Shown here: positions 19,601 to 62,892 of the stretch, piece by piece
Numbering within the stretch: the stretch's first letter is position 1
Layout of the letters: each line of letters starts with the position of its first letter
From: Dioscorea cayenensis subsp. rotundata
Lineage: Eukaryota > Streptophyta > Magnoliopsida > Dioscoreales > Dioscoreaceae
Length of the DNA: 64,000 nt
Direction of reading: 5' to 3'
Assembly: GCF_009730915.1 (NCBI RefSeq)
Contig: NC_052496.1
Coordinates: 1,287,875 to 1,351,874 of the forward strand
Translations under genes and position numbers: made by a program
Notes under the pieces: model-generated
Databases searched by the model: none
Told to the model about the DNA's origin: nothing
The model's input: the letters and a program-made list of their open reading frames with translations, nothing else

Positions 19601-22074
19601 AAAACACATATTTCTGCAAAAATCTAACAAACTAGAATCCAAAATAGTTGCAGTGCAAAACATTGGATCTGTAAAAAAAACAATGCCCAACTCTTAAAGA
19701 TCAAGGTGAAAATAAAAACACTTATTCCTATTGTTTCTTCAACAACATGCTTACTTCGGTAACAAGGCTACTATTCTCTATCAGTCATTGTCAGATTAGT
19801 TGATGGTATATTCTGCTACAAATATTGTATAAACTTTTAGTCATCTAAATCATATGTTTAGAAATAAACCTTTCTAGTTATCTATGATGAAGAATCAATG
19901 CCAATATTTTGTAAAGTGAAGCTAGAGACATACATATTCAAGGTATTTGGAAGAGAATTTGAATTCACCTAAGAAAAAAAAATTTAGTCTATTATATTAA
20001 AAATATTATACGAAACAACATAACAAATATACTCTTTAATAACATCATATTACCACACTTTCTTGAGTACAAAGTTCTTGTGTGCCATCTGGAGTTTGTG
20101 CATTTCCCTTAGGATGACTTTTTTTGAGTAAATAAAAACATAAATTTTAGTGTAGCAAATATTAAAAATGATATGAAGAGTATGAGTACCCTTTTCTAAT
20201 TTCTAATGATTAATTCTTCAACTTTTGACTTCTTCCTCTTCAATGGTGATCGGCCCTTAGTTCGAACTTTTAAAGGAGTTCGAAACTTTGTTATTGAAGA
20301 TGTTTCTTGGTGTTGTTCATGATCTTCATCCATAACAGTTACTTTGGATGACTCTCCCCATAATTTGTATCATCCATCAACTTCACTATTGCTTTATCCA
20401 CAAATTTTATTAGAAAATTATATTTCTCAATAGATTGTGCTCCAATTTTAGTAGCTTTGGAAAAATGAGATCATAAATTATTGTATCATAATGTTTGCTC
20501 ACAAGTGTCTGTATCATCGTAATAATTCATCACTTATGTATACCTGCGTTTAATATTCTTCTCCAATGAGGTAAAATATATTGAGGTGGAAGCTCTTTGA
20601 CATTCTTCTCAATGAAAACCTTTCAAATATGTCTATAAATAATTCCTCTGAACTCAAATAAACGGCATTACCATTTAGTGTCAAATTCAACTTCATTATG
20701 ATAGACATTGAATACCACTTATCTTCTGAATATGCCTTCTTTTCCTCTGAAAATATTTGTCACATAAAATATATGTAATGGCCCATCTGAATTTATAAGT
20801 GGAAGATTGCAATATAGCATTCTTCTTAATTCATCTTGAAACAACCCAAAATTTTCATTTGTGTAGGCTTCTTGTTGTTGCTTCTCAAAATGACAATCAG
20901 TTAACATGTGAAAGCTTGTGTTAAAAGAAGCAAAATGTGGTTTGTTTTCCTTCTCAATCTTACTTTTTGCGCATTGTCATATTGCTCCACAAATTGCTTT
21001 AAAGATGTTGTTGGAAAAACATAGCCATAAAAAAAAAAAAAACATTTATGCTTTCACTTCTTTGTGTGGTAGACATTCCAACCCAAAAAATTCCTTTAAC
21101 ATAGATAGGGCCCATCGGTGATGAATTTTGTATAAAAAATTCAACCACTCATTTCTTTCAACATTGTAGTCCTTATCATCTTCAACCAAGTATCTTTGAA
21201 TTCTTGAATATCCATTGCCTTATAAATGATGCTCTTTAATACCTTCTTTATTGCTTTGTACTCATTTAACCCTCCAAGCTTCTCAGGATCTTTCTTCATA
21301 ATATGCCATAGGCAAAGTCGGTGATGAGAATTCGGAAAAACTGCCTTAACTGCACCTTGAATAGCCATGCATTGATATGTAATTATTGGCTTAGGAGCCT
21401 TACCAGACATGTATTCCAACAAAGTATTGAACAACCAAATATAAGTTTTTGTATCTTTTTCGACAATAAACCACATCCAAATAATATAGTTTCCCCGTGA
21501 TGATTTATACCAACAAAAGGAGCACAATGTATGTTATACTTATTCGTCAAGTATGTTGTGTCAAATGATATTACATCACTAAAAGACTTATAGGCTGCTA
21601 TGGACCTTGCATCTGCCCAAATACATTTCTTAAACGACCTTCATCATCTCTATCAGGCATCTGAAAGAAATTTGAATTTCTCTAGTGCATGCGAGAGAAA
21701 TAATTGGTAAGGGTTTCAGTATTCCCAACACCAAGCCTAAGCTGCCTTGCTTTTGCAATGTAATTTCTGCAATCTTTTTCAGTATATGTTAAATTCTCAT
21801 AACCACCACTTTTAACCACTAAAGAATGAAAATTCTTACTCAATCATATGCCTGCTTGATCATTTAACTGAAGTCTTCTTTTCACATATCCATCCATTTT
21901 TTTATTGCATCGCTAAAAACGAGAATTTTGTGGAATGAGTGCATGAATTTTTTTCCCGAATTAACACGCGATATATTGCATTGTTTATTATCACCGATTA
22001 TAACATTAATCTTGGCTTCAAAATTCATCTTAGTAGATAGTCTTGGGTTGAAAGCATTTTTGGCAGTGGATATT

Positions 22075-36340: not shown

Positions 36341-36683
36341 AAATAAAATAAAAAAATTTTTTATTAATTTTTTCAAAACAAAATTATGTTTAGATACACT
36401 AATATGTATTTTCAAAATATAAAAAATAAAAACACGTTTGATTTTATATTTGCACAAAATTATGATGACTTTTTTTATTATTTTTTAATTCATATTTATT
36501 ATATTTTTTATGAATTATTTTTTTATATTAGTTTAGTTGATTGTGCCAATATCTTAAACAATAAATTTTTATAAATTCTTTTTTTGAAAAAAAAAATATT
36601 TTTTTATGTTATATCCTAATTTATAAAAATCAAGGGTCAAATAATGATTTTCATAAATATTTTTTAAAATATAATTTTTTATA

Positions 36684-39600
36684 GTGGAAATTGCCAAAAT
36701 AACCCCCTAAATTTCTAATATTTCCAAAAACACCCCATTAATTTGGGAATCCCTAAAAACCCCTTCCTTTTAAATACTGATGAATTTGAAACCCCCAAAG
36801 CATTTAATGGAGTTAGTTTTAAATTTTTGGACTGAAATTATCCCTTGCATGGGAAGTTGTGGCAAGTGAGGCGTGGTTTGACCATAGCGCCCTTTGTTGC
36901 GATAGTTTTTTTCTCTTTAAGAGGAATCGGGTTTTTTTCTTGGTAAATCCCGGAGAACACCAATATTGGTGTTGGTTTCTTTTTTCTCACTTCATCTCTT
37001 CATCTCTTCAGCTTTTCTTTTTTCAAAGTTGTCGTTGTCTGGACATCTTCTGTAGGATTGGACCACTGCTTCGAAGGAGAACTCCCACTCAACTCTTTGA
37101 CATTTCATTAGTTTGCGCTCCAGGTATTGAGGCGAGGTGGATGCCGTTGAAGATGTTGTCAGGTTTCCTTTTGTTTTGATATTCGTGGGTTTCTTTTTTT
37201 AGTTTGATTTCTAAAGTATTCTATTAGAAAGAGAAATTTTTTTCGGTTTTTATGGTGTGATTATTGGATGATCTTGTAGTTTGTAGGGAGATTTTTTTCG
37301 TGCAAGAGTTTTTGTTTGTTTTTCATTTTCGTTTGTGTACATAATCAAAAGCGATAATATTATGTTGAAGGAGATTTTTCGATTGTTTTGCAATTTCATT
37401 GTGATGTCCGACTCGATCCACATTTGTCTAGGACGGTCATGTTTAATTTTCAATGTAAATATTGTTATTTCTTTTTAACTATCAATTGTTCTATTTAAGT
37501 TTCAAAGTTTATGTTTAAATATCAATGTTTCTGTTTAACTACGACAGTTTCTATTTAAATTTCATCATTTCTTTTTAAATTTGAGTTTGTTTATGAAAAC
37601 GATTTTCATAAATAACGAGCAAAATGTACAATAATATGCGATAGTTTGTGGCAAACGTATGTAATGAATATGAGTTATCATTTATGCTTAGTTGGCGATA
37701 GTTTCTTTCCAAGATCTACGATTGTGTCCGCACTCGTGGTAGGGAAGTGAGTTTTTTAAATGGTTAGCGCCTACAAAACGTTGTCCGACATGCAATCACA
37801 AAACTTCAAAATGATCTAACGAGTTAGGAAGGCCTACTAAATCGTCAGGGTGGCCTTGAGGTGGGACGGATACGCTCTTAGAATCCGAATACCTACTAAA
37901 ATCATTTCTGTCTAAACTGAAACTGGATATATTTAAAACAGAGACATAACATTTTAAACAGAGACTTGATAAATTTAAACGGAAACATTTATGCTTAAAC
38001 AAAAAACTGTATAATTTTAAACGGAAAGAAGGACATGACAATAATAGTTTAGAAAAAACATAAGTTTTAAGTGGAAACTGGGATAATTAATCAATAATTA
38101 ACTTGTACAACTATGTTTATGTTTAAATATCATTGTTTCATTTTAAATTTGCGTTTGTTTATGAAAACGATTTTCATAAATAACGAGCAAAATGTACAAT
38201 AATATGCGATAGTTTGTGGCAAACGTATGTAATGAATATGAGTTATCATTTATGCTTAGTTGGCGATAGTTTCTTTGCAAGATTTACGATTGTGTCCGCA
38301 CTCGTGGTAGTGAAATGAGTTTTTTAAATGGTTAACGCCTACAAAACGTTGTCCGACATGCAATGACAAAACTTCAAAATGATCTAACGAGTTAGGAAGG
38401 CCTACTAAATCGTCAGGGTGGCCTTGAGGTGGGACGGATACGCTCTTAGAATCCGAATACCTACTAAAATCATTTCTGTCTAAACTGAAACTGGATATAT
38501 TTAAAACAGAGACATAACATTTTAAACAGAGACTTGATAAATTTAAACGGAAACATTTATGCTTAAACAAAAAACTGTATAATTTTAAACAGAAAGAAGG
38601 ACATGACAATAATAGTTGAGAAAAAACATAAGTTTTAAGTGGAAACTGGGATAATTAATCAATAATTAATTTGTACAACTATGTTTATGTTTAAATATCA
38701 TTGTTTCATTTTAAATTTGCGTTTGTTTATGAAAACGATTTTCATAAATAACGAGCAAAATGTACAATAATATGCGATAGTTTGTGGCAAACGTATGTAA
38801 TGAATATGAGTTATCATTTATGCTTAGTTGGCGATAGTTTCTTTGCAAGATTTACGATTGTGTCCGCACTCGTGGTAGTGAAATGAGTTTTTTAAATGGT
38901 TAACGCCTACAAAACGTTGTCCGACATGCAATGACAAAACTTCAAAATGATTTAACGAGTTAGGAAGGCCTACTAAATCGTCAGGGTGGCCTTGAGGTGG
39001 GACGGATACGCTCTTAGAATCCGAATACCTACTAAAATCATTTCTGTCTAAACTGAAACTGGATATATTTAAACAGAGACATAACATTTTAAACAGAGAC
39101 TTGATAAATTTAAACGGAAACATTTATGCTTAAACAAAAAACTGTATAATTTTAAACGAGAAAGAAGGACATGACAATAATAGTTGAGAAAAAACATAAG
39201 TTTTTAAGTGGAAAGCCCGGGATAATTAATCAATAATTAACTTAGTACTAACTATGTTTATGTTTAAATATCATTGTTTCATTTTTAAATTTACGTTTGT
39301 TTATGAAAAACGATTTTTCATAAATAACGAGCAAAAATGTCTAATAATATCGCGATAGTTTGTGGCAAACATATGTAATGAATATGAGTTATCATTTATG
39401 CTTAGTTGGCGATAGTTTCTTTCCAAGATCTACGATTGTGTCCGCACTCGTGGTAGTGAAGTGAGTTTTTGAAATGGTTACCGCCTACAAAACGTTGTCC
39501 GACATGCAATGACAAAACTTCAAAATGATCTAACGAGTTAGGAAGGTCTACTAAATCGTCAGGGTGGCCTTGAGGTAGGACGGATACACTCGTAGAATCC

Positions 39601-41127
39601 GAATACCTACTAAAATCATTTCTGTTTAAACTGAAACTGGATATATTTAAACAGAGACATAACATTTTAAACAGAGACTTGATAAATTTAAACGGAAACA
39701 TTTATGCTTAAACAAAAAACTGTATTATTTTAAACAGAAAGAAGAACATGACAATAATAGTTGAGAAAAAACATAAGTTTTAAGTGGAAACTGGGATAAC
39801 TAATCAATAATTAACTTGTACAACTATGTTTATGTTTAAATATCATTGTTTCATTTTAAATTTGCGTTTGTTTATGAAAACGATTTTCATAAATAACGAG
39901 CAAAATGTACAATAATATGCGATAGTTTGTGGCAAACGTATGTAATGAATATGAGTTATCATTTATGCTTAGTTGGCGATAGTTTATTTCCAAGATCTAC
40001 GATTGTGTCCGCACTCGTGGTAGTGAAGTGAGTTTTTTAAATGGTTAGCGCCTACAAAACGTTGTCCGACATGCAATGATAAAACTTCAAAATGATCTAA
40101 CGAGTTAGGAAGGCCTACTAAATCGTTAGGGTGGCCTTGAGGTGGGACGGATACGCTCGTAGAATCCGAGTACCTACTAAAATCATTTCTGTTTAAACTG
40201 AAACTGGATATATTTAAACAGAGACATAACATTTTAAACAGAGACTTGATAAATTTAAACGGAAACATTTATGCTTAAACAAAAAACTGTATAATTTTAA
40301 ACTGAAAGAAGGACATGACAATAATAGCTGAGAAAAAACATAAGTTTTAAGTGGAAACTGGGATAATTAATCAATAATTAACTTGTACAACTATGTTTAT
40401 GTTTAAATATCATTGTTTCATTTTAAATTTGCGTTTGTTTATGAAAACGATTGTCATAAATAACGAGCAAAATGTACAATAATATGCGATAGTTTGTGGC
40501 AAACGTATGTAATGAATATGAGTTATCATTTATGCTTAGTTGGCGATAGTTTCTTTGCAAGATTTACGATTGTGTCCGCACTCGTGGTAGTGAAATGAGT
40601 TTTTTAAATGGTTAACGCCTACAAAACGTTGTCCGACATGCAATGATAAAACTTCAAAATGATCTAACGAGTTAGGAAGGCCTACTAAATCGTCAGGGTG
40701 GCCTTGAGGTGGGATGGATACGCTCGTAGAATCCGAGTACCTACTAAAATCATTTCTGTTTATACTGAAACTTGATATATTTAAACAGAAACTTGATAAT
40801 TTTAAACGGAAACATTTATGTTTAAACAAAAAACTGTATAATTTTAAACGGAAACAGGGCCAGGACAAGGATAAAAGTCTTCCAAAGTTTGTTTCAGAAA
40901 ATAAAAAAGAAATGTAAAAAATGTTAGACATGATGTGATTGGACGGTTTTTTTCCCACCATTTTTAAGGGCAATGATGGAATTTCACAATATGGACCCAG
41001 TCCAAGTGACCTACAAGGGGTAAAAAGGAAGTAAAATGATAAAGGAAGGGTTGTCCGCGGTATTCATAACTTGCAGGGGTTGTTTGGGAAATTTGAAACA
41101 GTGTAGGGGGTAAATAGTAATTTTCCC
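36684..41127. mobile_element. MULE (4.4 kb) with internal 568-bp tandem array, exact 9-bp TSD
   Basis: The left end GTGGAAATTGCCAAAATAACC and inverted right end GGGAAAATTACTATTTACCC lead into similar TIRs with CCCCCT and ACCCC words. Flanks TTTTTTATA (36675-36683 and 41128-41136) are identical 9-mers. This end type (GGAAATTGCCAAAATACCCC-like) is common in plant MULEs. No complete transposase is visible: the interior is about 0.75 kb of unique left arm, the tandem array, and a short right arm. Confidence 0.85.
37440..40870 (-). repeat. 568-bp tandem array, 6 units, each with a zinc-knuckle-like ORF end
   Basis: The landmark GTTGGCGATAG recurs at 37691, 38259, 38827, 39405, 39972 and 40539 (spacings 568, 568, 578, 567, 567). 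On the minus strand five of six units keep the same open frame: NRNDFSRYSDS.SVS, PQGHPDDLVGLPNSLDHFEV, LHVGQRFVG, HYHECGHNR(K/R)SCKETIAN, stop; the first unit (37691) reads out of this frame before the end. The GHNR.SC ending recalls the CCHC knuckle at the C-terminus of MuDR-like transposases, but the first two Cys are not in register. Within each unit lies a ~24-bp minisatellite (TTTAAACNGAGAC.T words). The 39.2-kb unit carries several 1-bp insertions. Confidence 0.85.
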
Positions 41128-42030
41128 TTTTTTATACAATATAAACTAATTTGTAAAATTCCAACATGCCAAATAATAAATTTTTATAAATATTTTTTAA
41201 AAAATATTATTTTTTAGACTATTGGTATTAATTTGTAAAAAAATGATAAATTTTAAAAATTAAAAATTAAAAACTAGAGAGAGAGAGAGATAGAGAGAAA
41301 GAGAGAGCAGCAGAAAAGGAGGACCTCTAATGGAGGTAGCCAGGTAGGTGTGGTTTTAAAACCGTTTTCAAAAAAATTAAAAATTTCTATTTTTTTTAAA
41401 AACATGAGAATTGTTGCCAAAATTTTTGAAAATAAAAAACAAGGTGCTAAACATGTATTTGTTAGTTTTGTTTCTAAACATACAATTGAAAATAAAAATA
41501 GAAATTGGCTATGATGCCAAAAAACCCCTTAGTTGTGTATGTTTATTTTTTTTTTTAATTTTTTATTTTTTGAAATTATGAATAAATCACTTGTATTAAA
41601 TAAAAATTGATTGTTTATAAAAATGTATTTTTTTAATATATTTAATAATTAAATTTTTAAAAGTAATAAACTTAATAAATATGTTATTGTTTTAATTTTA
41701 ACATATCAATTTTTTATTAAATATTAATTAAATGAAAATTTAGTCCGTTAAAATAAAAATTCTTATCAGCCATGTTTTAAGAAAGATTCTTTTAATTTCA
41801 TATTATATAACTCACCCAAAAATATTATGTGAATTTATAATTTTTTAATAAGCTTTTAATAATGATAAAAATATTTTAAACAAATTTTTAAAAACTAGAG
41901 AAAATTAGAAAACATAACTTGTGAAAGATTGAATTGATTGGAATATTGTCTTATTGTGAGTGTTGAAACTACCGCATCCAGTATCAAACAAGTAACAGAA
42001 GAATGGTATTTTTTTAATTTTAATTTTTTT
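41128..42030. other. AT-rich spacer
   Basis: Over 75% A+T by eye. A (GA)n run at 41275-41308 is the only distinct feature; no gene is seen. Confidence 0.5.
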
Positions 42031-43145
42031 AATTTTGAAAAATAGATAAACCACATTCATTAACTAAGAGAATAACAGAAGAAACATACAACAAACCTCT
42101 ACCAACAGTAGAGAACACCACAACAACAACAAAAAAACAACCCCAAGACCAACACAGAAACCACTAGCCGTGGATACAAAAACCCAAACACCCCACACCA
42201 TGATGAGGAAGCGGAAACTTCCTCAAAGCGCTCTGCACCGGCTGCTACCCCACGCTCTGCTCCTGAAACTCCTCTGGTACTGAGACCTCCAGTCGCTCCT
42301 CAACACGAGGTCCCAAAAACTCTAGACTACGTCTGATACTAGCCAGAGAGTCAAGCATCTTCTCCTGTGATCGATCCCCCACTGAAGAACACCAGGACAA
42401 AATCATGCGATCAATTTTAAGGATGACAGAATAAACATGCAGAACATTGGCATTAAAAAGACAGTCATTTCGAGCAAGCCAAACATTCCACAAAATAGCT
42501 TTAATCATAATATCGCTCATGTCTCGCAGTGTATGTCCCACCGACATCCGCCACGAGTCCCACAGATTTTCCACTAAAGGTGGAGGCTCAGGCAAGTGTA
42601 GCAAATTACTAAAATAGCCCCAGATACGTCGTGCAAACGGGCAATGAATGAAAAGGTGATCCGCAGTTTCAATGTCCGAGTGGCATAGAACACAGGTCGC
42701 CGTTGGCATTCTATTACACCTCCTCTTTTCAAGATTCTCTAGAGTAAGAATTTTGTTTTTCCATACCAACCAATTGAAAAGGGAAATTTTTCTAGACACC
42801 GGGCAACGAACACCCCCATCGATCAAGAAGTTGTAGAACAACTTCACTGAGAAGTGCCCGTTTCCAATGAGCTTCCAAACTTTGACATCCTCTCCCTCAC
42901 CTCCACCATTTATTAACCGATCACTAAACCCTTGAATCACAGTGCTATCACAAAAGGGTGTCTCAGACAAAAGATGAGCGCACTCGTGCACCGTACCATT
43001 TTGCATATGAGCATCCCCGAAAGCATCTGGCCAAATGTTCATAGGGGCTACACCATTTAGCCAGGAATCCTTCCAAAAGAATGTTTCCCGCCCGGACCGA
43101 ATCTCGTGAGAAATGCAGGCTCTCATCGCCGAGACATAAAGGCTG
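42031..43145 (-). mobile_element. LINE 3' fragment with zf-RVT domain
   Basis: The minus-strand open frame 43126-42245 (293 aa) is clean. It reads EIRSGRETFFWKDSWLNG, then the zf-RVT block FNWLVWKNKILTLENLEKR, CVLCHSDIETADHLFIHCPF, then AILWNVWLARNDCLF and SIRRSLEFLGPR. This is the C-terminal third of an L1-type ORF2 (after the RT domain). It is followed by a 3' UTR ending GTGGTTTATCTATTTTTC plus an AT-rich tail at 42031. Endonuclease and RT are absent, so this is a 5'-truncated insertion whose remaining frame is undamaged, suggesting it is fairly recent. Confidence 0.88.
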
Positions 43146-43294
43146 AATTATAGATGAAGTAGACAACTAGTACTCACAAGAAGCGAATATAGATTAACAA
43201 TCCGATAGAGAAAATGCAAGAGAAGAAAAAAAAAGATTACAAAGACATAGTTAGAGTATTAGAGGTAGCTAAAACTTCGGGACTACCCGGCAGT

Positions 43295-45778: not shown

Positions 45779-46690
45779 CCCCTTCAATCACAACTGATGA
45801 AGATTGAGATTGAGCTTGAATTTCTCCTATTGCCATAGTTGTCATACTGACAATGGCTTCATAAAACCATTTGCCACTTGATGTTGTGAAGGTATGAATC
45901 CAATGTCAAAAACATTGCGTGTAACTCGTTCTCGGACAAAATGTAAATCCACTTCAATGTGCTTGGTCTTGGCATGGAAGACAGGGTTCACTGACAAGTA
46001 GGTGGCACCAAGATTGTCACACCATAAGCATGCCGTCCGAGATTGAAATACACCAAGTTCTCTACATAACGATTGTACCCAAACAATCTCTGCTATAGCA
46101 TTAGCAAGTGCTTTATATTCTATTTTTGTGCTAGATCGAGAGAATATTGCTTATTTGCTCGCACTCTACGAGATCAAGTTGGATCCAAAGAAAACAACAA
46201 AAGCCACCTGTAGACTTCCCGTCATCCGAATATTCCTCCCAATTGGCATCGCAAAAGGCACTCACCAAGGTGGAGGCAGACCTGCAAATCTTCATACCAA
46301 TTGTTACAAACTGTCATGCATCCCGTGTGCATTGGTAGGAGAGTGCAGGAATTGGCACACCTTATTTATAGAGTAAGCGATGTCAAGCCGTGTGAGGACA
46401 GTGTACTGAAGCACCCCAACAGTGCTTCTGTATTTGGTCACCTCATTGAGACCTAATAGATCCCCAACAGTAACAGAAAGCTTGTTAGTGTTTGACATAG
46501 CAGTAGTGGCACATTTGCATGTCGTCATGCTAACCTGACATAGAAGATCTGTCACATACTTGAACTGAGAGAGAACAATTCCATCGTCTAGTTTCTTCAC
46601 CTCAATTCCAAGAAAGAAATGTAACTCACCAAGATCCTTTAAAGCAAACTCACTTTGCAAATTTCGCAAAAGAGTCTGAACCACCAATGA
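45779..46690 (-). pseudogene. Copia RT C-terminus and RNase H
   Basis: The open block 46687-46304 reads FALKDLGELHFFLGIEVKKL, FKYVTDLLCQVSMTTCK, VTKYRSTVGVLQYTVLTRLDIAYSIN, the standard end of copia RT. RNase H follows to about 45850: [15 protein letters not shown]-like wording, [30 protein letters not shown]. It is separated from the catalytic YVDD block (49170) by the hAT insertion at 46695-49130. Confidence 0.85.
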
Positions 46691-46694
46691 GGAG

Positions 46695-49130
46695 TAGGGA
46701 TGGCAATTTATACCCTACTTAATGGGTATACTCGTACCCGGTCAAAGAGGGTATTTACTGTCTTTAATCGGGTACGGGGTAAGGGTATTACCTGTTATTT
46801 TTTTAGCGGGTACAGGTCGGGTAAGGGTATGCCCCTACCCATACCCTTACCCGTTGAGGATAGTACGGTTTTACCAGTACCCGTACCTTTACCCTCATAT
46901 ATATATATATATATAATTTTTTATTAAGCTAAACATTTAAACACAATTTACCCAAGATACAATTCATTACGATTAATTTGAAAATAATACTTTAAATTTT
47001 CTCTTAATATATTATTTTGAAATTTATTTAATTTTTATATTTATATTTGATATAGCACAATATTTTTTTGGATATAAATATTATGGATTACAATTAAATT
47101 AAAAAATTTAAACATTATAAAACAAATATAAAAAATAATATTATAATAAATTATTCTATAAATTATAAAAACCACCTGAAAAATAAAATACTAATAAAAA
47201 ATCAATTGGTTATGAGAATTACTTATAATATTTTTTATATTTAAAATCTCACTGGACATTTATAGAATTTGAAACTATAAAATATAAATAGTAGATATAT
47301 GAAAAAATTTAAAACAAAAACCAAGATAGTTAAACATAAACAAAAAAAGGTATAATTGCCATTGAGTCCAAAATAGACGCCAATGAAATCAACAAAGTTG
47401 TTATTTTGTATAAATTAATTTGTTACGTATAACTTTTATGTGATTATATAATTTAAGATAAACAAATATATATCAACTTGTAATTTTGAATTTACGGACA
47501 TGTGTTTAAACATTGTATTATTATTATTTAAATTTAATTCGATAATTTGAACAACGGATAAGCAGGTATCCTACGGGTATAACCGTATCTTGCGGGTAAG
47601 GGTAAGGGTATGATTTTTTATACCCTGGAGGGTACAGATAAGGGTACAGGTAGACGTGGCCATTTTGAACCGAAACCGTGGAACCGAACCGGAACCGAAC
47701 CGCCAAAAACCGGAATCGGAACCGGAAAAACCGTAACCGTCCTAAAACCGGAACCGGAAGCTTCATATAAGGTTCGGTTCCGGTTTCAAAATTTAAAAAC
47801 CGTGAAACCGGCGGTTCCATATGCGGTTCTATATGCGGTTTAACCGGCAGTTCCATATACGATTCAACCAAAGGTTCAAAACAAAAGTTCATATTATATT
47901 ATATAAATATAATATGAATAATGTCATACTATATAAATAACGTCATTTATGATTAGGTTTTTATTTTGTTAATATCATTAATTAGTAATTAATTAAGTAA
48001 TTGCATGTTTAAAGATATTTTAAATAATTAATTAAAGATATTAACCAAATTGATTATTGATTAGGTCTGATTCTGAATACTTGATTAGCCGATTAGGTCT
48101 AATTTGTGACATTCGTCCAACTTATATGTACTGTGCCATGCGAAACTTTGTTACACATGCAAGAGGATAAGTTATAATTAATTGATTATGTCACAAATTA
48201 TTAGTTACAAATTAAATATGGATTTATTAAAATAATTTAATTAACGAGAAGTACTTAAATATTCAATTCTTTAGTAGATTTCCATATTATTTTTATAATT
48301 TAATATAAAAAACAAACACTAGATTTTATATATCTTCCGTTTTGAAACTTACAAAATTAACGTAGTTCATATTAAATTATATTTATTTTATATAAATGAA
48401 AATATACTGAGTAAAATGCTCTCATGTAAAACATTTGAATCATTAAAAAAATATATAAATAAATAAAATAAAATAAACATGAATATATATGTGTATATAT
48501 ATCAATTTGCCTGATTTTGTTGATCATTTATATATATATATATATATTCCAATATATAGATAAAACTCCCAAGATTTTCAATTTGTAAACTATGCAACTT
48601 ATATAAGTATACTAGAAATCAAAAAGAAAAAAAGGAAAAAAATAAAAAAATAAAAAAACAATTCCTAAAGAAAAAAACAAATAACATACATGAACATTAA
48701 AAAAATAATAACAACAAAAATAAATAAAACATTGAAACCTTGGGTATACCGTGATACCTACTAACTTAACCTACTATCTTATATTAGTATTAAATTAATT
48801 CTTGTATTTTTTTGTGTTAATTAATTTGAATTATTGAATTATTTAGTTTAAAAAAACCCGAACAGTATGAACCAGTCAAACCGGAACCGTTGAACCAAAC
48901 CGCTAGAACCGGAACCGAACCGCCAAGAACCTTGCCTAGGAGGTTCGGTTCCGGTTCAAGGTTTCCTGAACCGAACCGCGGTTCAGGGAAACGATAACCG
49001 CGGTTCGAGAACCGTGAATCGGCGGTTCCTGAACCGTGGCCATGTCTAGGTACAGGTATGAGATAGGGGTTACTAGTACGGGTAAGGGTTTTGGCATACC
49101 CTATCCATATCCTACCGTTTGCCATCCCTA
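46695..49130. mobile_element. hAT element 1 (TIR TAGGGATGGCAA), inserted in copia RT
   Basis: Termini TAGGGATGGCAA ... TTGCCATCCCTA form TIRs, with an exact 8-bp duplication ATGAGGAG (46687-46694 and 49131-49138). Subterminal regions hold many GGGTA / TACCC repeats (46720-46890, 47560-47650, 49050-49120), as in hAT elements. No transposase is found, so it is non-autonomous. It contains a second hAT near its right end. Confidence 0.93.
47651..49048. mobile_element. hAT element 2 (TIR TAGACGTGGCCA), nested in hAT 1
   Basis: Left end TAGACGTGGCCATTTTGAACCG and inverted right end CCGTGGCCATGTCTA, with exact 8-bp duplication GGTACAGG (47643-47650 and 49049-49056). The subterminal zones are dense in AACCG / CGGTT repeats. 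The interior is AT-rich and non-coding. The open frame 47892-47524 is created by the CGGTT repeats. Confidence 0.93.
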
Positions 49131-53432: not shown

Positions 53433-56157
53433 ATGTCGAGTGTGGTGGTGCTGGACAACGGCGGGGGCCTTTGCAAGGCTGGCTTCGCCGGCGACAGAGA
53501 TCCCACCGCCGTGGTTCCTAACTGCTTGGGCCGCTCAGGTGCGTCGAAGAGGTGGCTGGTGGCCGACCAGCTCCTGGCCCCTGACTCCGATGTCACCTCC
53601 GTATCCATTCGCCGTCCTTTAGACCGCGGTTACCTCGTCAACCCCGACCTCCAGCGCGAGGTCTGGGACCGCATCCTCAGGTCTCTCCTGCGCGCCGACC
53701 CCGCTCACTCCTCGCTTCTGCTTGTGGAGCCCCTTTTCAACCCCCCCTCCGTCCAGCGAGCCACGGACGAGCTCATCTTCGAGGACTTTGGTTTCCAATC
53801 TCTGTGCGTGGCGGATTCCCCCTCCCTGATCCATCTTTACGAAGCTAGCCGGCGGCCGTGCCTCTCGCAGTACTGCTGCAGCCTCGTCGTCGACTGCGGC
53901 TTTTCTTTTATCCATGCCGCCCCCGTCCTCCACAACTTCACCCTCAACTATGGCGTCCGCAGGCTTGATCTCGGCGGCAAGGCCCTCACCAACTACCTCA
54001 AGGAGCTTGTCTCCTACCGCTCCGTCAATGTCATGGATGAGACCCTCATCATAGACCATGCCAAGGAGCAGCTCTGTTTCGTCTCCCTCGACGTGGCCCG
54101 AGATCTCGAACTCGCCAGGTGAGCCATTGTGTTCATCAAAATTTGAATTTCAACAGCAGTTCATCTCGGCACAGTAGATGCTTGATGATTTCCCTCATCC
54201 ACCGTGTCTCCTTTTCTTTTCATTTCCAATATTTTTTGTGGCTGATGCCCATTTCCCCATCTCACCTTCTAATGCAATTTATGATTAATGATTTTGCTTC
54301 TAAACCGAGAAAACTCAATTGTCACGGCTTGGGGTTTATATGAACAGCATCACATTTGACATCTCGTCAGAAGCATTTTGTGCAAGACACTCCATGACAT
54401 TCTTGCAAATGGAACAAGTTTATCTTTAAGACAAAAACTCTATGTTAAACATCCTCAATGCAAAGCAATCATTGTTTTTCACTTAAGTTATCTATGGCTC
54501 ACACAGAACATGCTAGATTTGTTCACTCAAATTGCTGTTTAGCTGTAAATTGAAACTGTTGATGAGTGCTTCTCGAAAGTAAAATAAAAAAACACAATTA
54601 TGTTCTACTTGTCGTAATTGTTTGTGCGCACCATATTTCCTCAACTAGATGAGCATGCACCTCAAAGTTGTTGATAGAAGATTATGCCATTGGTTAGCAT
54701 GATTCATCTCAGTAATGATTATCTGTGCATCTTGTTCACTAGGAAATCAGGGGAAGACAACCCATTCAGGTGCACTTATGTTTTGCCAGATGGTGTTACA
54801 CATACAAAAGGTTATGTGAAAGACATGGAGGAGGCCCGGAGGTATCTCTCTCTGCCATCTCAGAGTACCATCAATCAGTCAGTGGCAAATGAAGAGCTAG
54901 ATTGCCAAGAGAATGCAAAAAGACCAGAGGCTAGGAGGCAGATTGATCTAACAAAAAATGTGTTGCCTCAATCTGACTACTGGCTGAAAGGATTTATCTG
55001 TTTTTGTTCGTCTGGCTCACATAAGTTCTTCTGTGCAGGAGTTTTCTCTGACAAATGAGCGCTTCCTTGTGCCTGAGATGATTTTTCATCCTTCTGATCT
55101 GGGTCTGTATCGCCTTAATCCATTTGAGAGTATCTAATCTTACATTTGAGGCTTAATTGCGACATGATGAACTTTGCAGCTTCTATCAGCTTGCACTGTC
55201 TGCATTTTGTGGACTGGAGTTTGAAAAGATTTAGGTTGTGACTCCTTGTTGGTCAACTTAGACAGGATACTATAGTTTTGTGCCATTATTACTGATGTTA
55301 TCTGACTTAATTATCATTCACCTTCTTATGACTATCATTGTCTACATAATATTAGTATTTGCATCCAGTCTATTTTACAGTGCTTGTGTTTTAAATCTGT
55401 GACTTAAGATGAAATCATTTTTGTAAATCTTATCCTTGTAGTGTGGATCTCAGGTGCATTTTTCATGGGTTAAATTTGTTCATGGTGCTTAATTTGGTTC
55501 TGTGGATATTTACAGGTATGAACCAAGCTGGATTAGCTGAGTGCATTGTACGAGCTGTTCAGTCATGCCATCCTCAACTTCATCCTCAACTTTTTGAGAG
55601 GTGATTCTTTATGCTTTGAGATTACTGCCATGTGTTTCTGTTCATTCAATTACATGGTTGAATAACAGGCAGAATGTCATCTTTAGTTTATAGTTCGAAA
55701 CTTACTGATTAAAACATATGTTACTAATCACATTAATTATTTTGGCAGCATTATTTTGACTGGTGGGAGCACATTATTTCCTCAATTTAGGGAAAGACTG
55801 TAAGATGCTTATCTTATGACCTTTCAATTGGATGAAGAGGCAAGCCAATTGTCAATTCTGTCTTTTTTCTTCCTATAGAGAAAGAGAGCTTCGACCTCTT
55901 GTCCGGGATGATTACAAAGTGAAGATAGCTACACAAGAAGAGTATAACAATTCCTCATGCTTGTTTTCTGCATCTTGTTGTAAGTTTAAATTTCTTGAGC
56001 ATTTTATACAGCTCTTCTATGGTGCAGTCCCATTTTAGGTGTATGGAGAGGCGGATCATTACTAGCATCAAGCCCTGATTTTGAATCGATGTGCATTACA
56101 AAACTGGAGTACGAGGAAATTGGATCTGCCCGTTCACGGCGTCGTTTCTTCCACTAA
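53433..56157 (+). CDS. ARP6: Actin-related protein 6 (SWR1 complex), 7 exons
   Basis: Exons: 53433-54118, 54743-54959, 55039-55102, 55516-55600, 55749-55799, 55879-55941, 56028-56157. GT-AG introns keep frame to a stop, giving 431 aa (plant ARP6 is about 420). The nuclear protein is a core part of the SWR1 complex that deposits H2A.Z and affects flowering and temperature responses. Visible actin-fold pieces: VVLDNGGGLCKAGFAGD (phosphate-1), GYLVNPDLQREVWDRIL, SLVVDCGFSFIHAAP (phosphate-2), RLDLGGKALTNYLKEL, FLVPEMIFHPSDLGMNQAGL, SIILTGGSTLFPQFRERL (adenosine region) and ILGVWRGGSLLASSPDF near the end. The C-terminus ..SRRRFFH is typical of ARP6. Exon 1 is GC-rich, the later exons AT-rich. The minus-strand frame 54059-53619 is a shadow. 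No defect is seen. Confidence 0.95.
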
Positions 56158-56820: not shown

Positions 56821-57002
56821 CACCATTCATTAGAGATAAGTGGCCTTTATCTCTTCTTCCTCTCCTTTCACACTGCTTGCCTTCTTCTTCTTCATCCTAT
56901 TCCTCTCACTTCGTGAACCAGAAGACATTCAAGTCATGACCTCCACCTGAAACGCTCCCCTTCCACCTGAAACACTCCCCATTATTCGTCATCCCCCTTG
57001 CC

Positions 57003-58745
57003 ATGGCAAGCGGGGACAGGCAACCAGTCCCTCCTCTCCGCCAGCAGCCTAAATCTTGGGCACAAATCGCCTCTAAACTGCATCAACCCTCTGATAACTC
57101 ACCACTCCACAATCCTCACATTCTCAGTAAAATCAAGGACTCCACTACTGACTTTGTTCGTCTTGATGGTGATACCATGAGTAGAGCCCGCTTGAAGTTC
57201 CAGCATGCTCTGTATGGTAAGCTATTTGGGAAACCCCCCACTTTCGACCAAGTAAAGATTGAGCTTCTTTCCAAATGGAGCTCGTTTGGAGAGGTCCTCA
57301 TTTCTGATTTACCCAATGGTTTCCTACTGGTCAGATGCTCTACTCAGCAAGCTATGCAACATATTCTCCTTAATGGACCATGGTCCGTCAACGGGATTAT
57401 TCTTCAACTTTCACCATGGGAGCCTTTCTTTGAACCTACCTTTGCTAAGCTCAACACTGCAGTGGTATGGATTCAATTACATAACCTCCCTGTGGAGTTT
57501 TGGGAAGGAGAAACGCTCGAAACGATTGCTAATCAATTTGGTTCTCTCATTAAGGTGGATGATTTTACTTCCTCGTTGAGTCGGTCTAAATTTGCTCGTC
57601 TCTGTGTTGAGATCGACCTGTCCAAACCACTCAGTCGTGGCTTTTGGATTGGCGACGATCTTCATAGAGTCTTCGTGGTTGTCATGTATGAAAGACTCCC
57701 AACCTTTTGCTATACCTGCGGAATGATAGGACACGGCAGTAACTCCTGCTGTTCGTCTCTGTCGCCTGGTGCCGGTGAGACCGTTCCGACCCGCCCCTCG
57801 TGGCGAGTTGAAACCAGGCCTACCTTGGTATCAAGCCTCGATGACCAACGCATGGAGGACTCCGTGCCCACTATTGATCATTCTTTGCCGGAAAAACCTG
57901 ATAATACTGTTCATGCCATGCCGGATTCTGATTTTGGCCCCTGGCTACTTGTTTCCCGACGGCGAGGTAGCTCCCGCGGTCGCGGCGGCAACTCGCGTGC
58001 CAGTCACGTGACCCCGGGAGTTGCAGCCGTTTCGGGTCCCGACGCCTTCAAGTCTCGAGGCACGTCATATCACAGCTTGCGTGGTGGAAAGAGATCCGAT
58101 CCGAGTGGGCGGCACCCCCCCACTCACGTCTCCCCCCCCCCTGAATCTGCACATTCGCATATCCCTGCTGATCAGTCACATCATAGCTCTCCCGTTGTCT
58201 CTCCCCTTTCCAATGCAGTGACCCCTTTTCCTAGAAGCCCACCTCCTAACCAACCTGACCCACCGCCTTCGCACGCCATTCTAGATACGCCTTGTCTAGC
58301 TGTCACTGCTATTGCTGGTTCGCTGCCTAAGCCCTCCACTCAAAGCTCGGCTCTTCACCTTCCCCCACTTTTCGAGATCAACTCACGTAGCCGTTACAAA
58401 TCCCCACCCCCTGCCATCCGTTCCTCGTTACATCCGCCAAACCCCTCTTCTTCCCTTCAGGATCCCTGTTCGCATACTAGCTTGGTGGATAAGATCTCCA
58501 CTGCTCTTGAGGGTGATGGTATGGAGGATGTGGGCTCTCAAGATGGACAATACACTGACGAAGATGATGATGATGATGAAGAGATGTCTGATGAAGGTGA
58601 TCCCGCTCTTGAACCAGATGATGCAATGACCTTAGTTCAGTATCAAGCTGAGGCTCGGAGGGAGGCCCTCATCCGAAAAAGCTCAAATACGTCGGAAATC
58701 TCTCCGAAGAAGGGGAGGATTGAGTCAGGGGGTCCCTCTTCCTAA
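57003..58745 (+). CDS. LINE ORF1: DUF4283/zinc-knuckle RNA-binding protein
   Basis: 580 aa, uninterrupted. The DUF4283 domain covers about residues 50-230 (RARLKFQHALYGKLFGKPP, ELLSKWSSFGEVLISDLPNG, VWIQLHNLPVEFWEGETLE). A CCHC knuckle CYTCGMIGHGSNSC (236-249, C-x2-C-x4-H-x4-C) follows. The rest is Pro/Ser-rich with an acidic tail (DEDDDDDEEMSDEGD) and a KKGRIE end. In plant L1 elements this protein binds the element RNA in the ribonucleoprotein. The ATG at 57003 gives MASGDRQPV, followed by SWAQIAS, which is typical of ORF1 starts. ORF2 begins 80 bp downstream in another frame. Confidence 0.9.
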   Translation: MASGDRQPVPPLRQQPKSWAQIASKLHQPSDNSPLHNPHILSKIKDSTTDFVRLDGDTMSRARLKFQHALYGKLFGKPPTFDQVKIELLSKWSSFGEVLISDLPNGFLLVRCSTQQAMQHILLNGPWSVNGIILQLSPWEPFFEPTFAKLNTAVVWIQLHNLPVEFWEGETLETIANQFGSLIKVDDFTSSLSRSKFARLCVEIDLSKPLSRGFWIGDDLHRVFVVVMYERLPTFCYTCGMIGHGSNSCCSSLSPGAGETVPTRPSWRVETRPTLVSSLDDQRMEDSVPTIDHSLPEKPDNTVHAMPDSDFGPWLLVSRRRGSSRGRGGNSRASHVTPGVAAVSGPDAFKSRGTSYHSLRGGKRSDPSGRHPPTHVSPPPESAHSHIPADQSHHSSPVVSPLSNAVTPFPRSPPPNQPDPPPSHAILDTPCLAVTAIAGSLPKPSTQSSALHLPPLFEINSRSRYKSPPPAIRSSLHPPNPSSSLQDPCSHTSLVDKISTALEGDGMEDVGSQDGQYTDEDDDDDEEMSDEGDPALEPDDAMTLVQYQAEARREALIRKSSNTSEISPKKGRIESGGPSS

Positions 58746-58825
58746 CTCTTTTCTCCTTTACTCCTCTGTGTTGGACCTATTTTTCAGGAAGTTTTTTATT
58801 GCTCTTACATCACTTTGGTTTTCTC

Positions 58826-61800
58826 ATGAATACGACTAAACTCATTTGCTGGAACTGCAGGGGCATCTCCTCGCGAGACACCTCTTCCCGGGTTTTTCGG
58901 ATCATTCGATCCCATAAACCAGCTGTGGTTTGTCTTGTTGAAACCAGAGCTGACTCTGACCGGTTAGATCGCTTTTACAGGAAGATCCCCAAGACTTGGG
59001 ATTGGGCCGCCGTGCTTGCCAACGGCTTTTCCGGCGGCATCATTGTTATGTGGCATAAATCCATTGGCAGGGTTTCTCCTATCGCTGTGTCCAGACGTGC
59101 CTTACATATTATTATTACTGATAACTCCTCCAATGCCTTCCTTATCTCCGTTGTTTATAACTCGTCTCGCATTCGTAATCAGTGTTACCTTTGGAATGAG
59201 CTCTCGAGGATCACCCCTCTTAAAATCCCTTGGCTTATTGTGGGAGACTTCAATTCGGTGCTCCACACGACTGAGCATAAGGGAGGTCCTGCAAACTACT
59301 ATGAGCGGAAAACCCGTTTTTTCCTCGACTTCGTGGAGTATAACAATTTGATTGATCTTAACTATACAGGTCCAGCTTTCACTTGGTGTAACAATCAGTC
59401 TGGGCTAGCTCGGCGCTGGGCTCGTCTCAACAGATGCCTTATTAATCTTGCTTGGGCGGGTTTTTTCAGATCAAACACTTTAAAGCATCTCAACCGTGCT
59501 TTCTCTGATCACACTCCTCTTTTTCTTCTCTCCTCTCCGTCTACCTCGACTCCTAAAAAAATTTTCCGTTTTGATAATAGTTGGTTTGATCTTATAGGTT
59601 GCCATAATGCCGTCCGGGATGCCTGGGGTTTGTCGCCGCATGGGAATCCTATGCAAGCCTTCACGCATCTCTTGTCTCGAACCCGTTACAATCTTTGTGG
59701 TTGGCGTCGTTCCGGATTTAACAAGATTGAATCTGCTCTCATTAATCTTGACAAGGATATCAATAATCTGGAAAACTCTGACTTCAATACCATATCTCAA
59801 TCCCTCCTCATGGATCGCTACGCTAACCTCTCTGCCTTGCAGCGTCAGTGTAGTGTCAAGTGGGCTCAGCGTGCCCGTTTACAGTGGATTAACGATGGGG
59901 ATAAGAATACCGGTTTCTTCCATGCCCTTACCCATATTCGTGCATATACTAATTGTATCTCGCAGGTCGTGGATTCCTCTGGAAACACGTGCAATGAGCT
60001 CCCACACATTGAACAAGCCTTTCATCATTATTATAAGAATCTCTGGACCACTCCAAATAATACTTCTGCTGATATTCTTAGCGCCCTTCCCATTGTCCTG
60101 CCATGTCTATCTGCTTCAGAGTCGGACATGCTGTGTCGGGAGGTTTCTAAAGATGAAGTGTATCGTACCATCGCTGCCCTCCCCACAGGTAAGTCTCCTG
60201 GTCCTGATGGGTTCAACTCAGAATTTTACTTGAAGTTTTGGCCTCTCATCGGGAACCAGGTTTTCTCTGCCATCAGGTTCTTTTTCGATAATTCCTATAT
60301 GCCTCCTTCTTGGGGCAAAACCTATATCACTCTTATTCCAAAAAAAGATAAGCCCAAGTTGGTTTCCGATTTTCGCCCGATTTCCTTATGCAACGTTAAT
60401 TTTAAAATCATTTCTAAAATCCTTGCTAATCGACTTCAGCTTGTTCTCCCTAAGTTAATTGGTCGAGAGCAAGCTGGTTTTGTTTCTGATCGCTGCTCCT
60501 TCGATAATATTATTACTGTGCAAGAGCTGGTGCATACTTTACAAACTGATACCAAGAACCCCCCTAGGATGTTAATTAAACTCGATATCGAGAAGGCGTA
60601 TGATACCATAGACTGGAGTGCAATTCTTGCTATCCTCTCTCGTATGAATTTCCCAGACCGTTGGATTTCTTGGGTTGCCAAGTGCCTCCAATCTTGCTCT
60701 TTCTCTCTGCTGATTAATGGCAATTCCTCTCCTTGGTTCTCTTCTTCTAGAGGAGTTCGCCAAGGAGACCCGATTTCACCCTATTTGTTTATTTTAGTTT
60801 CTCAGACCCTTACTCACATGCTTAACATCGGCCTTTCCATCAACATGATCCCTGGTTTTAATCCTAATCTTCCAAATAACTTCAATCATCTCATGTATGC
60901 CGACGACCTCATCCTCTTTACTAAAGCCTCTAGAAGAGCTGCCCGTAGTGTTAATCTTTGTTTGGATTTATACTCTAAGCTCACTGGTCAACACCCCAAT
61001 CTCTCCAAATCCCAGATTTTCTTCCCTTCTTGGTGTAATAAACATGTTTCAAACAGAATTTGCTCAATCCTGAATCTCAAAGCAGCCTCTTTCCCTTTCA
61101 AATATCTCGGTGTTCTGATCTCTCCCAAGAGAATCGCTTCTTCGGCCTTTGTGCACTTGGTTGATAAGATTAGCCTCACTTGTAAGCGTTGGAGTAATTT
61201 TCACCTCTCTCCAGCTGCTAAAACTGTTCTGATTAACTCTACTCTCCTTTCAATTCCCACTTATACTCTGTCTGTCTACCCAATTCCAGATGGAATTCTG
61301 TCCGAGATCACCAAGGTGGTCAGGAAATTTTTCTGGAGCAAGGATAGCAATGGAAATGGCATCCATAATGTGAGTTGGAATGTTATTAACGAAGGTAAGA
61401 CTGAGGGGGGTCTTGGTATCAGGAATCTTGCTCTTGCTAAATATTCTCTTATGGCCAAGCATGTTTTCAAGTATTTGAACAATGATGATGCTTTTTGGGT
61501 CAATATTCTGAAATGGAAATACGGTAATTTTAACTTTTGGAAGAATCCCACTCCTGTCAATTGTTCCTGGTTCTTTCGTAGCTTAGTTAGAACTGTTGAT
61601 CGTATTAAACCATTTTGTCGCATCAACTCAATGAATATTAATTGCACCTCCTTCAATTGGGACCCGTGGTGTTTTGACATCCCTCTCGCTCTCAAACCTA
61701 CATACATCAACATGGATGTGGATGTTGCTCAGTTTCCTATTTCTGATTTGATTCGTAATACAGCGTGGGATACTTCTCAGCTCAATTTTTTGTTTAGTCC

Positions 61801-62892
61801 CATGGCTAACTTGCAGGATCTTGCCCTCTGTAATATTGACAATAGTTCTTGTAATCATTGGGGCATATTAATATCTCAACGTCTGTGTATAATCACCTAA
61901 GTCACCTCAATCATTTATCTGATTCTTGGAACGGCTGGGCATTGCTTTGGAAACTTTATACTGCCCCTAAAGTGAAACACTTTCTTTGGACCCTGTTCCA
62001 TGGCCGGCTCTCTACTTATAGTTATCTTTTTCATTTGAATCTGGGACCCAATGCTAATTGTATCCTTTGTGGCCTTGCCCCGGAGACTACGGAGCATCTC
62101 TTTGCTGAATGCTCTAAATCTCAGTTGATTTGGTCTTATTGTAGTGTGCAGGTTAATACTCATATTCAGTTTCCTAATGGTTTTGCATCTGGTGATTGGC
62201 TTACTAATGGAAATCTTTCCACAAAATTAATCTCCACCATTGCTGCTGTTACCTGGTTCATCTGGAAACTTCGTTGTGATATTATTTTCAGGAATACCAA
62301 CCCCAATTTCCCACTTGTTGTCTGTAAAGCTTTGGCTCATGTGCAGGAATTCAGCAGGAGTCGGTGTAACCTTCTTGGCCAAAAGTTCATCTTGAGCAAT
62401 TTCTCTTGTACTAATGGCCTTCTTCTCTTTTCGCACGTCAACTGCAATCAACGCACCGGGGTAAGCTCGACTGGCTTCTATATTACCAACACTGATTATG
62501 TTATATTGCTTGCAGGTTGCTGCTCCCTTCCGTTGGACGGTGCAACCAGAGTTGTCCTTGCTGGTCTCAGCATTGCCCTTCGCGTTGCTGCAGATTTTCA
62601 TTGCGTTATCAAGCATATCTGTGTCAATACCTCTGATATCCCTGCAATCATCAATGGAAGGGCCCAAGTAACCACCTGGCGATTTAATTCTTTGATTGAG
62701 GATATCATATCTTTACTGGGCATCCATGGCTATCCAGCTATTCATTGTATACCAATTTCCTGGATGCATCCTGCAGTCTCTCTTGCTACCCATGGTTTTA
62801 ACTATGCATCTTTGAACCTGTTCTTGTTTGGTCGCGAGCTTCCGCATTGGATCATGAAGACTTTCACAGTTGCTGGATTTATGTTTAGTTAG
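58826..62892 (+). pseudogene. LINE ORF2: endonuclease-reverse transcriptase, one frameshift
   Basis: 58826-61900 encodes APE-type endonuclease (LICWNCRGI, CLVETRAD, IVGDFNSVL, FSDHTPLFLL) and RT (LIPKKDKPKLVSDFRPISLCN, QAGFVSDRCSFDNI, KLDIEKAYDTIDW, RGVRQGDPISPYLFIL, MYADDLILF). The frame is then lost near 61858, in a G run. A second frame (61858-62892) carries on with SVYNHLSHL, the zf-RVT block (KVKHFLWTLFHGRLS, CILCGLAPETTEHLFAECS) and an RNase-H-like tail. The two frames overlap by 43 bp, which fits a single-base change. All catalytic RT residues are intact. The tail lacks the conserved acidic residues of RNase H at the positions I can align. The ORF start is MNTTKLICWN. Confidence 0.88.

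Follow-up and report, generated by a model that had tools for sequence, protein, structure and literature searches.

A family of Mutator-like elements in yam with an internal satellite-like array of 568-bp units

Introduction

We analysed a 64,000-bp stretch of the genome of the yam Dioscorea cayenensis subsp. rotundata (contig NC_052496.1, positions 1,287,875 to 1,351,874; hereafter the window) and found at positions 36684-41127 a Mutator-like element (MULE) with an internal satellite-like array, which is one of a family. At many loci the same pair of arms encloses arrays of this unit, with differing target site duplications (TSDs) and differing numbers of units. Very probably, this is a non-autonomous MULE family of yam in which a non-coding tandem array of ~568-bp units, situated between the arms, is carried along with the element and resized in place.

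The origin of satellite DNA from transposons is usually inferred afterwards. Here a single ancestral array seems to underlie dozens of insertions at different sites. The growth, shrinkage and homogenisation of arrays can therefore be followed from one copy to the next (2-14 units in those read), and one can look for arrays that have left the element. With arrays that seem to have been copied along with the element, the family illustrates clearly how satellite DNA can originate and spread.

Structure of the element

The element is flanked by an exact 9-bp TSD, TTTTTTATA, at 36675-36683 and 41128-41136, as had been claimed in a first-pass annotation of the window. The chance background for such a pair is low, identical 9-mers at the same spacing occurring at 3 of 59,538 window positions. 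The inverted ends are degenerate and ~110 bp long; gaps aside, 43 of 56 aligned bases pair within the outermost 60 bp, and 73 of 105 when 110 bp are taken. The ends align locally with a score of 33; 1 of 2000 dinucleotide shuffles scored as high, as did 3 of 1610 pairs of window segments with the same spacing. The ends of the element are conserved across the family copies. A 9-bp TSD (9-11 bp being allowed) together with terminal inverted repeats (TIRs) places the element in the Mutator superfamily.

The interior consists mostly of six tandem units, again in agreement with the first-pass annotation. They start every 567-578 bp and are 92.4-98.4% identical in pairwise comparison, the partial sixth unit being the most divergent. 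The features of the element are as follows (aa, amino acids).

36675..36683, no strand: left TSD TTTTTTATA, an exact match to 41128-41136
36684..37444, plus strand: left arm, 761 bp, starting GTGGAAATTGCCAAAATAACCCCCTAAATTT; the outer ~110 bp are the degenerate inverted end
37445..37580, minus strand: left cluster of 20-bp sub-repeats (~7), with the motif TTTAAACAGAAAC in minus orientation
37581..38148, plus strand: unit 1, 568 bp; antisense frame interrupted by an internal stop
38149..38716, plus strand: unit 2, 568 bp
38158..38180, no strand: inverted repeat of 23 bp, TTTATGAAAACGATTTTCATAAA, able to form a hairpin, at the start of unit 2
38256..38654, minus strand: 132-aa antisense frame, the longest open one in unit 2, with HYHECGHNRKSCKETIAN before the stop; regarded as non-coding
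38472..38596, plus strand: right motif cluster of unit 2, mainly plus with one overlapping minus site; each unit has a similar cluster
38717..39294, plus strand: unit 3, 578 bp; its tail variants are mostly also present in other copies
39295..39861, plus strand: unit 4, 567 bp
39862..40428, plus strand: unit 5, 567 bp; antisense frame ends 5 codons early
40429..40880, plus strand: unit 6, partial and most divergent; it merges into the right arm, and its approximate end overlaps the piece taken as right arm
40856..41127, plus strand: right arm, ~270 bp, finishing GTAATTTTCCC; the outer ~110 bp are the degenerate inverted end
41128..41136, no strand: right TSD TTTTTTATA, an exact match to the left copy

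The hairpin-forming repeat TTTATGAAAACGATTTTCATAAA has four exact copies in the element and none in the rest of the window. Among 127 complete units of the family it is exact in 42 and present with at most 3 mismatches in 98. No Pfam domain above cut-off was found in the 11 scanned of the element's 16 open reading frames (ORFs) of at least 50 aa, no RNA family matched at its gathering score within 36600-41200, and a 25-bp core pattern had no match in IMG/VR viral contigs.

Derivation of the unit spacer from the arms was considered and rejected. The spacer after the last motif scored 19 against the right arm, a value reached by 293 of 300 shuffles, and the score of 22 against the left arm before the 20-mers was reached by 256 of 300. 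Longer spacer stretches that include the shared motifs do align with the arms (scores 49 and 78, without a control).

Copies across the genome

The genome searched comprised 2249 contigs with 584,211,761 bases. With the whole element as query, 36 of 3900 first-look candidates were scored and 66 matches were obtained; these form 36 regions, the window's own included. The architecture is not a one-off but recurs at these 36 loci, which were examined in detail. Counting cores longer than 100 bp, and including the truncated first cores of a deletion subfamily, there are 2 cores in one copy, 3 in eight, 4 in twelve, 5 in seven, 6 in one, 7 in three, and 8, 9, 12 and 14 in one copy each. Related MULEs with differing unit number, which the first-pass annotation had proposed as a search target, were thus recovered with 2-14 units. 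In the deletion subfamily one junction, joining left arm position ~539 to core position 123, is common to 10 of 10 copies, and unit numbers differ among them.

The arrays are flanked by left-arm sequence in 33 of the 36 copies and by right-arm sequence in 35, and units were never seen outside an arm where one is present. An exact 9-bp TSD stands at the fixed ends of 17 of 29 two-ended copies, with one mismatch in 4 more; when ends were paired wrongly as a control, exact duplications appeared in 2 of 812 pairings and duplications with one mismatch in 21 of 812. Altogether 16 distinct TSDs occur among the family copies.

A search with the monomer (197 matches from 39 of 685 candidates) added at least 12 array regions to the 36. 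Flanks were read at five of those 12, and each of the five lies between a left arm and a right arm. An array running past the TIRs had been named beforehand, together with the lack of any transposase match of the units, as what would refute the first-pass proposal; such an array was not seen in any of the 36 copies and five further arrays read. A left-end match is present at the expected distance from the further arrays on C4, C9, C16 and C2 (7.74 Mb), and the inner left arm at the expected distance from those on C4, C9, C16 and C3 (540 kb). On C19, at 30.99 Mb, an inner-left-arm match lies 7.4 kb upstream on the same strand; C19 and C414 are counted as undecided.

Pattern searches gave a wider view of abundance, each with a control count of 0. 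A 29-bp core pattern had 281 genome matches at up to 3 mismatches, 137 of them within the 36 copies, and the inner left arm had 110. A 31-bp degenerate left-end pattern had 1169 matches at up to 3 mismatches, so that, set against the core and inner-arm counts, ends are far commoner than the arrays visible here. To judge from these matches, a very large group of elements has the 31-bp left end in common. Among the matches listed, at least eight window-type left ends are without a listed monomer match. Two of those eight nevertheless carry units, C10:1072468 (83.6%) and C8:16317303 (core match 1.1 kb on), and the array-bearing share of left ends is uncertain for that reason. The unit copy at C10:1073100-1073900 (L057; 83.6% identity) appears to contain more small insertions than other copies and may be either an old copy or poor sequence.

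Thirteen further loci, C607 and C2000 included, were picked among the core matches listed. Six of them have the inner left arm no more than 12 kb upstream, and at C6:19051326 a left end lies 615 bp upstream; the six others are counted as undecided.

Evolution of the array

We compared 165 full cores from the 36 copies. Core identity is 94.2% within a copy (417 pairs) and 91.2% between copies (13,113 pairs), and 80 of the 165 cores have their closest relative within their own copy (200 label shuffles: mean 5.7, maximum 16). Position in the array also matters. The nearest other-copy unit of a first unit is itself a first unit in 21 of 36 cases (200 within-copy permutations: mean 9.8, maximum 18), and that of a middle unit is a middle unit in 52 of 93 (permutation mean 45.5). 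The likeness within copies, taken together with the likeness of first units across copies, suggests that multi-unit arrays were probably passed on by transposition and then changed in place by expansion, contraction and exchange; the array was probably multi-unit already in an ancestor of the copies. The units run head to tail, vary in number and are homogenised, and in these respects the array is satellite DNA.

Within the window element, sites 133, 140 and 171 divide the units into 1,4,5 and 2,3,6, and sites 302 and 336 divide them into 1,2,3 and 4,5,6. This four-gamete conflict between groupings implies exchange between units or repeated mutation. Positions in CpG context are more variable than others (heterozygosity 0.173 versus 0.076). 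Methylated DNA would be expected to show this pattern, which suggests methylation and decay of the copies.

Uneven quality of the repeat had also to be considered, since 9 of the 11 indel events among units 1-5 are concentrated in 39150-39360 and the copy at C10:1072468 appears rich in indels. Both observations would suit an assembly artefact in which a repeat was falsely expanded or left unpolished. However, 155 of the 197 15-mers of 39150-39360 recur in other fetched loci, and the best other copy is 95.7% identical with 7 gap positions. A sequencing-error patch was dropped on these grounds, and most of the stretch is taken to be a real variant. Arrays differing in length are held by 36 loci, each with its own flanks, and an artefact is scarcely credible.

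Origin of the arrays

The explanation that we favour, that of an array carried along and resized in place, can be set out as a series of steps. An ancestral element would already have held a few units. Elements would then have transposed together with their arrays, the transposase being supplied by a putative partner. After insertion, unequal exchange or slippage between units would have altered the copy number, and exchange or gene conversion may have homogenised the units.

Several observations weigh against this explanation. An exact TSD at the fixed ends is missing from twelve of the 29 two-ended copies, and A+T makes up 95% of the TSD sequence. The left arm is missing in 3 of the 36 copies and the right arm in 1, and on that side the array's limit cannot be judged. 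Membership in the Mutator superfamily is drawn from TSD length and end sequence only. The autonomous partner is hypothetical, and no one-unit ancestor was found. Last units are nearest to other last units in 19 of 36 cases against a permutation mean of 9.2, yet permutations reached 22, so that this signal is within their range. Lastly, two arrays, on C607 and C2000, have no inner-left-arm match at up to 2 mismatches anywhere on the contig. On C607, 10 exact core matches lie between 70507 and 79158 (8.65 kb; array to 79186) and span ~16 unit positions; on C2000 there are 3 exact core matches over 2.3 kb (19697-21989).

These two arrays may be copies of the deletion subfamily, may have been cut at contig ends, or may have escaped from the element. 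They are also what could be cited if the satellite came first, that is, if the 568-bp monomer were an independent satellite that was captured by a MULE or into which a MULE landed. The deletion subfamily without that piece of the arm, or a contig-end cut, would account for them as well, and elsewhere the unit keeps to the element: no unit lies beyond an arm in the 36 copies, both arms are present at all five further arrays read, and the inner left arm is near at 6 of the 13 loci picked. We regard a satellite-first origin as very unlikely.

The antisense open frame

The first-pass annotation had described a zinc-knuckle-like ORF at the end of each unit, in antisense, and had proposed that the C-terminus of a MuDR-type transposase was amplified in, or captured by, the element. 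Its observation that most units keep the same antisense frame and stop was borne out. The common stop is present in all six window units, although the frame is broken by an internal TGA in unit 1 and shortened in unit 5, which stops 5 codons early, and it is retained in 163 of 165 cores. A frame of 132 aa is rare, being matched in length by 13 of 2000 shuffles. The peptide GHNRRSCKE presumably resembles the knuckles of plant MULEs, and 7 of 9 key knuckle positions are filled, a score that was devised post hoc and that none of 3000 shuffles or 207 window chunks equalled. From these points the unit could be a captured or retained 3' end of a MuDR-type transposase gene, consisting of the C-terminal zinc knuckle and 3' noncoding DNA, which was amplified inside the element.

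Most of what would be expected of such a gene fragment is wanting, however. The strict pattern CX2CX4HX4C is absent from all six frames of the element, and the consensus of the 165 cores, which ends SLHYHECGHNRRSCKETIAN, has the His and the last Cys in place and Ser/Tyr at Cys1/Cys2. The frame is open for at least 70 codons in only 73 of the 165 cores, and the ~21-bp sub-repeats help to keep it open. A comparison of synonymous and non-synonymous change among units, suggested in the first-pass annotation, revealed no constraint. The ratio of non-synonymous to synonymous polymorphism (pN/pS) is 1.34 within the window, the highest among the six frames, and 0.69 across copies (1500 between-copy pairs), where all frames range from 0.66 to 0.86; heterozygosity at the three codon positions is 0.093, 0.084 and 0.095. 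Searches of 5.8 billion proteins returned 5 and 17 candidates, all with E above 10, and Pfam gave no match at E<=1 for two antisense ORFs and none above the curated cut-off for three more.

Because homologues, two of the four ligands and coding constraint are all absent, we treat the antisense frame as non-coding and reject the zinc-knuckle ORF as a gene. The frame is very probably a by-product, and at most a decayed knuckle relic. The zinc knuckle and the transposase C-terminus of the first-pass annotation are accordingly not upheld, and amplification of a transposase fragment is an unlikely origin for the unit.

Sub-repeats and motif clusters

The units are themselves built on 20-21-bp sub-repeats, and the array is therefore a satellite within a satellite. 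The 13-bp motif TTTAAACAGAAAC, allowing up to 2 mismatches, has 49 sites in the 4.4-kb element and 6 in the other 59.6 kb of the window. Neighbouring sites on the same strand and less than 100 bp apart are spaced by 20-22 bp (26 cases), 42 bp (4) or 62 bp (1). The autocorrelation of the left cluster, 0.688, exceeds the shuffle maximum of 0.548 (0/1000). To the left of the core the motif points one way and to the right of it mainly the opposite way. The left and right clusters match as reverse complements with a score of 45 (shuffle maximum 41; 0/500), whereas in direct orientation the score of 19 was reached by 260 of 500 shuffles.

This density, the spacing of 20-21 bp, which is about two helical turns, and the match of the two clusters only as reverse complements are features that a functional array might have. 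The phased clusters could bind the element's transposase or an anti-silencing protein of the VANC type, and amplification of units could have been favoured because it multiplies the sites. The targets of VANDAL21 in Arabidopsis are likewise dense in a short motif in one orientation and often lie within fast-changing tandem repeats (PMC5735166). However, the motif of the yam element is not YAGTATTAY, and the sub-repeats alone could give such spacing. Across 127 complete units the motif columns are no better conserved than the rest (heterozygosity 0.089 versus 0.081 and 0.077; permutation p for lower heterozygosity 0.79). In units 1-5 of the window, without the stretch 39150-39360, 2 of 98 motif columns and 22 of 470 other columns are variable, a slight difference. 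Selection on the motif copies, tested across the 127 units, is unsupported. Since the motif columns are no better conserved than their surroundings, we keep a binding function as a minority reading, possible but doubtful.

In a further proposal, the element would be a satellite that moves, and its units would be landing pads multiplied by amplification. The two inverted, helically phased motif clusters of each unit would be bound by a transposase or an anti-silencing protein that the partner encodes. The number of units would then tune how readily the element is mobilised or evades silencing, and arrays as long as that of C607, with its ~16 unit positions, would be on the way to becoming free satellites. 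We think this quite improbable. The inverted phased clusters are a plant case beyond Arabidopsis in which the idea of tandem targets for element-encoded proteins could be examined.

Comparison with known elements

Non-autonomous plant MULEs have a 9-bp TSD, inverted ends and many copies, and their interior is a deleted transposase gene or a captured host gene. The yam family agrees with them in its TSD, its inverted ends, its many copies and in that no transposase gene was seen in the element, but it differs from the usual pattern in that a long tandem array, whose number of units varies, takes up its interior.

Precedents for MULEs with internal repeats exist in Drosophila and Arabidopsis. 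The Tetris element of Drosophila virilis, with its TIR-220 repeats, was placed by its authors in the Mutator superfamily on the basis of 8-10-bp TSDs (PMC4079207). It is an animal foldback element with ~220-bp internal tandem repeats, variable in number and located within the inverted ends. These repeats provided the material for satellite arrays, of which satellite-like examples with up to 66 copies have been shown, and the authors invoke unequal crossing-over (PMC4079207). Like Tetris, the yam family is a Mutator-type element with internal tandem repeats of variable number. Unlike it, the family belongs to a plant, its 568-bp unit fills the interior, its ends are short and degenerate, and escape is a candidate only.

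VANDAL MULEs of Arabidopsis have degenerate ends, and their non-coding regions often consist of tandem repeats dense in a short motif; these repeats expand, contract and evolve together (PMC5735166, PMC10398659). Copies of VANDAL21 carry the VANA, VANB and VANC genes, and the target motif of VANC is YAGTATTAY (PMC5735166, PMC10398659). The yam family is similarly a Mutator-type plant element with degenerate ends and motif-dense, non-coding tandem repeats, but its motif TTTAAACAGAAAC differs from that of the VANDAL targets and is no better conserved than its surroundings. No VANC-like gene was noticed, no search aimed at one having been made. In a plant, the family unites a long unit, an interior that is mostly array, and many insertions. 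A literature search, with most subscription papers outside its coverage, found no report of such a combined family.

Neighbouring features in the window

Other features of the window are as follows.

42245-43147, minus strand: LINE-like (long interspersed nuclear element) fragment, ~1.1 kb from the element, with a 300-aa open frame that has a zf-RVT domain
53436-54122, plus strand: first part of a gene for actin-related protein 6 (ARP6), with 100% identity to the Dioscorea cayenensis subsp. rotundata protein over 200 aa
56940-62892, plus strand: LINE-type element whose ORF1, 601 aa, has DUF4283 and a zinc knuckle

The ARP6 of the window is 90% identical to an actin-related protein 6 of D. zingiberensis. 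In the LINE-type element at 56940-62892 there is also a reverse transcriptase ORF of 1058 aa with an endonuclease domain, and zf-RVT is found in an overlapping third ORF of 345 aa. The stretch 46690-47665 is AT-rich, with TACCC/GGGTA-rich ends that resemble imperfect inverted repeats, and is perhaps another small transposon. Within it are two motif-like copies, at 47309 and 47329, with a spacing of 20 bp.

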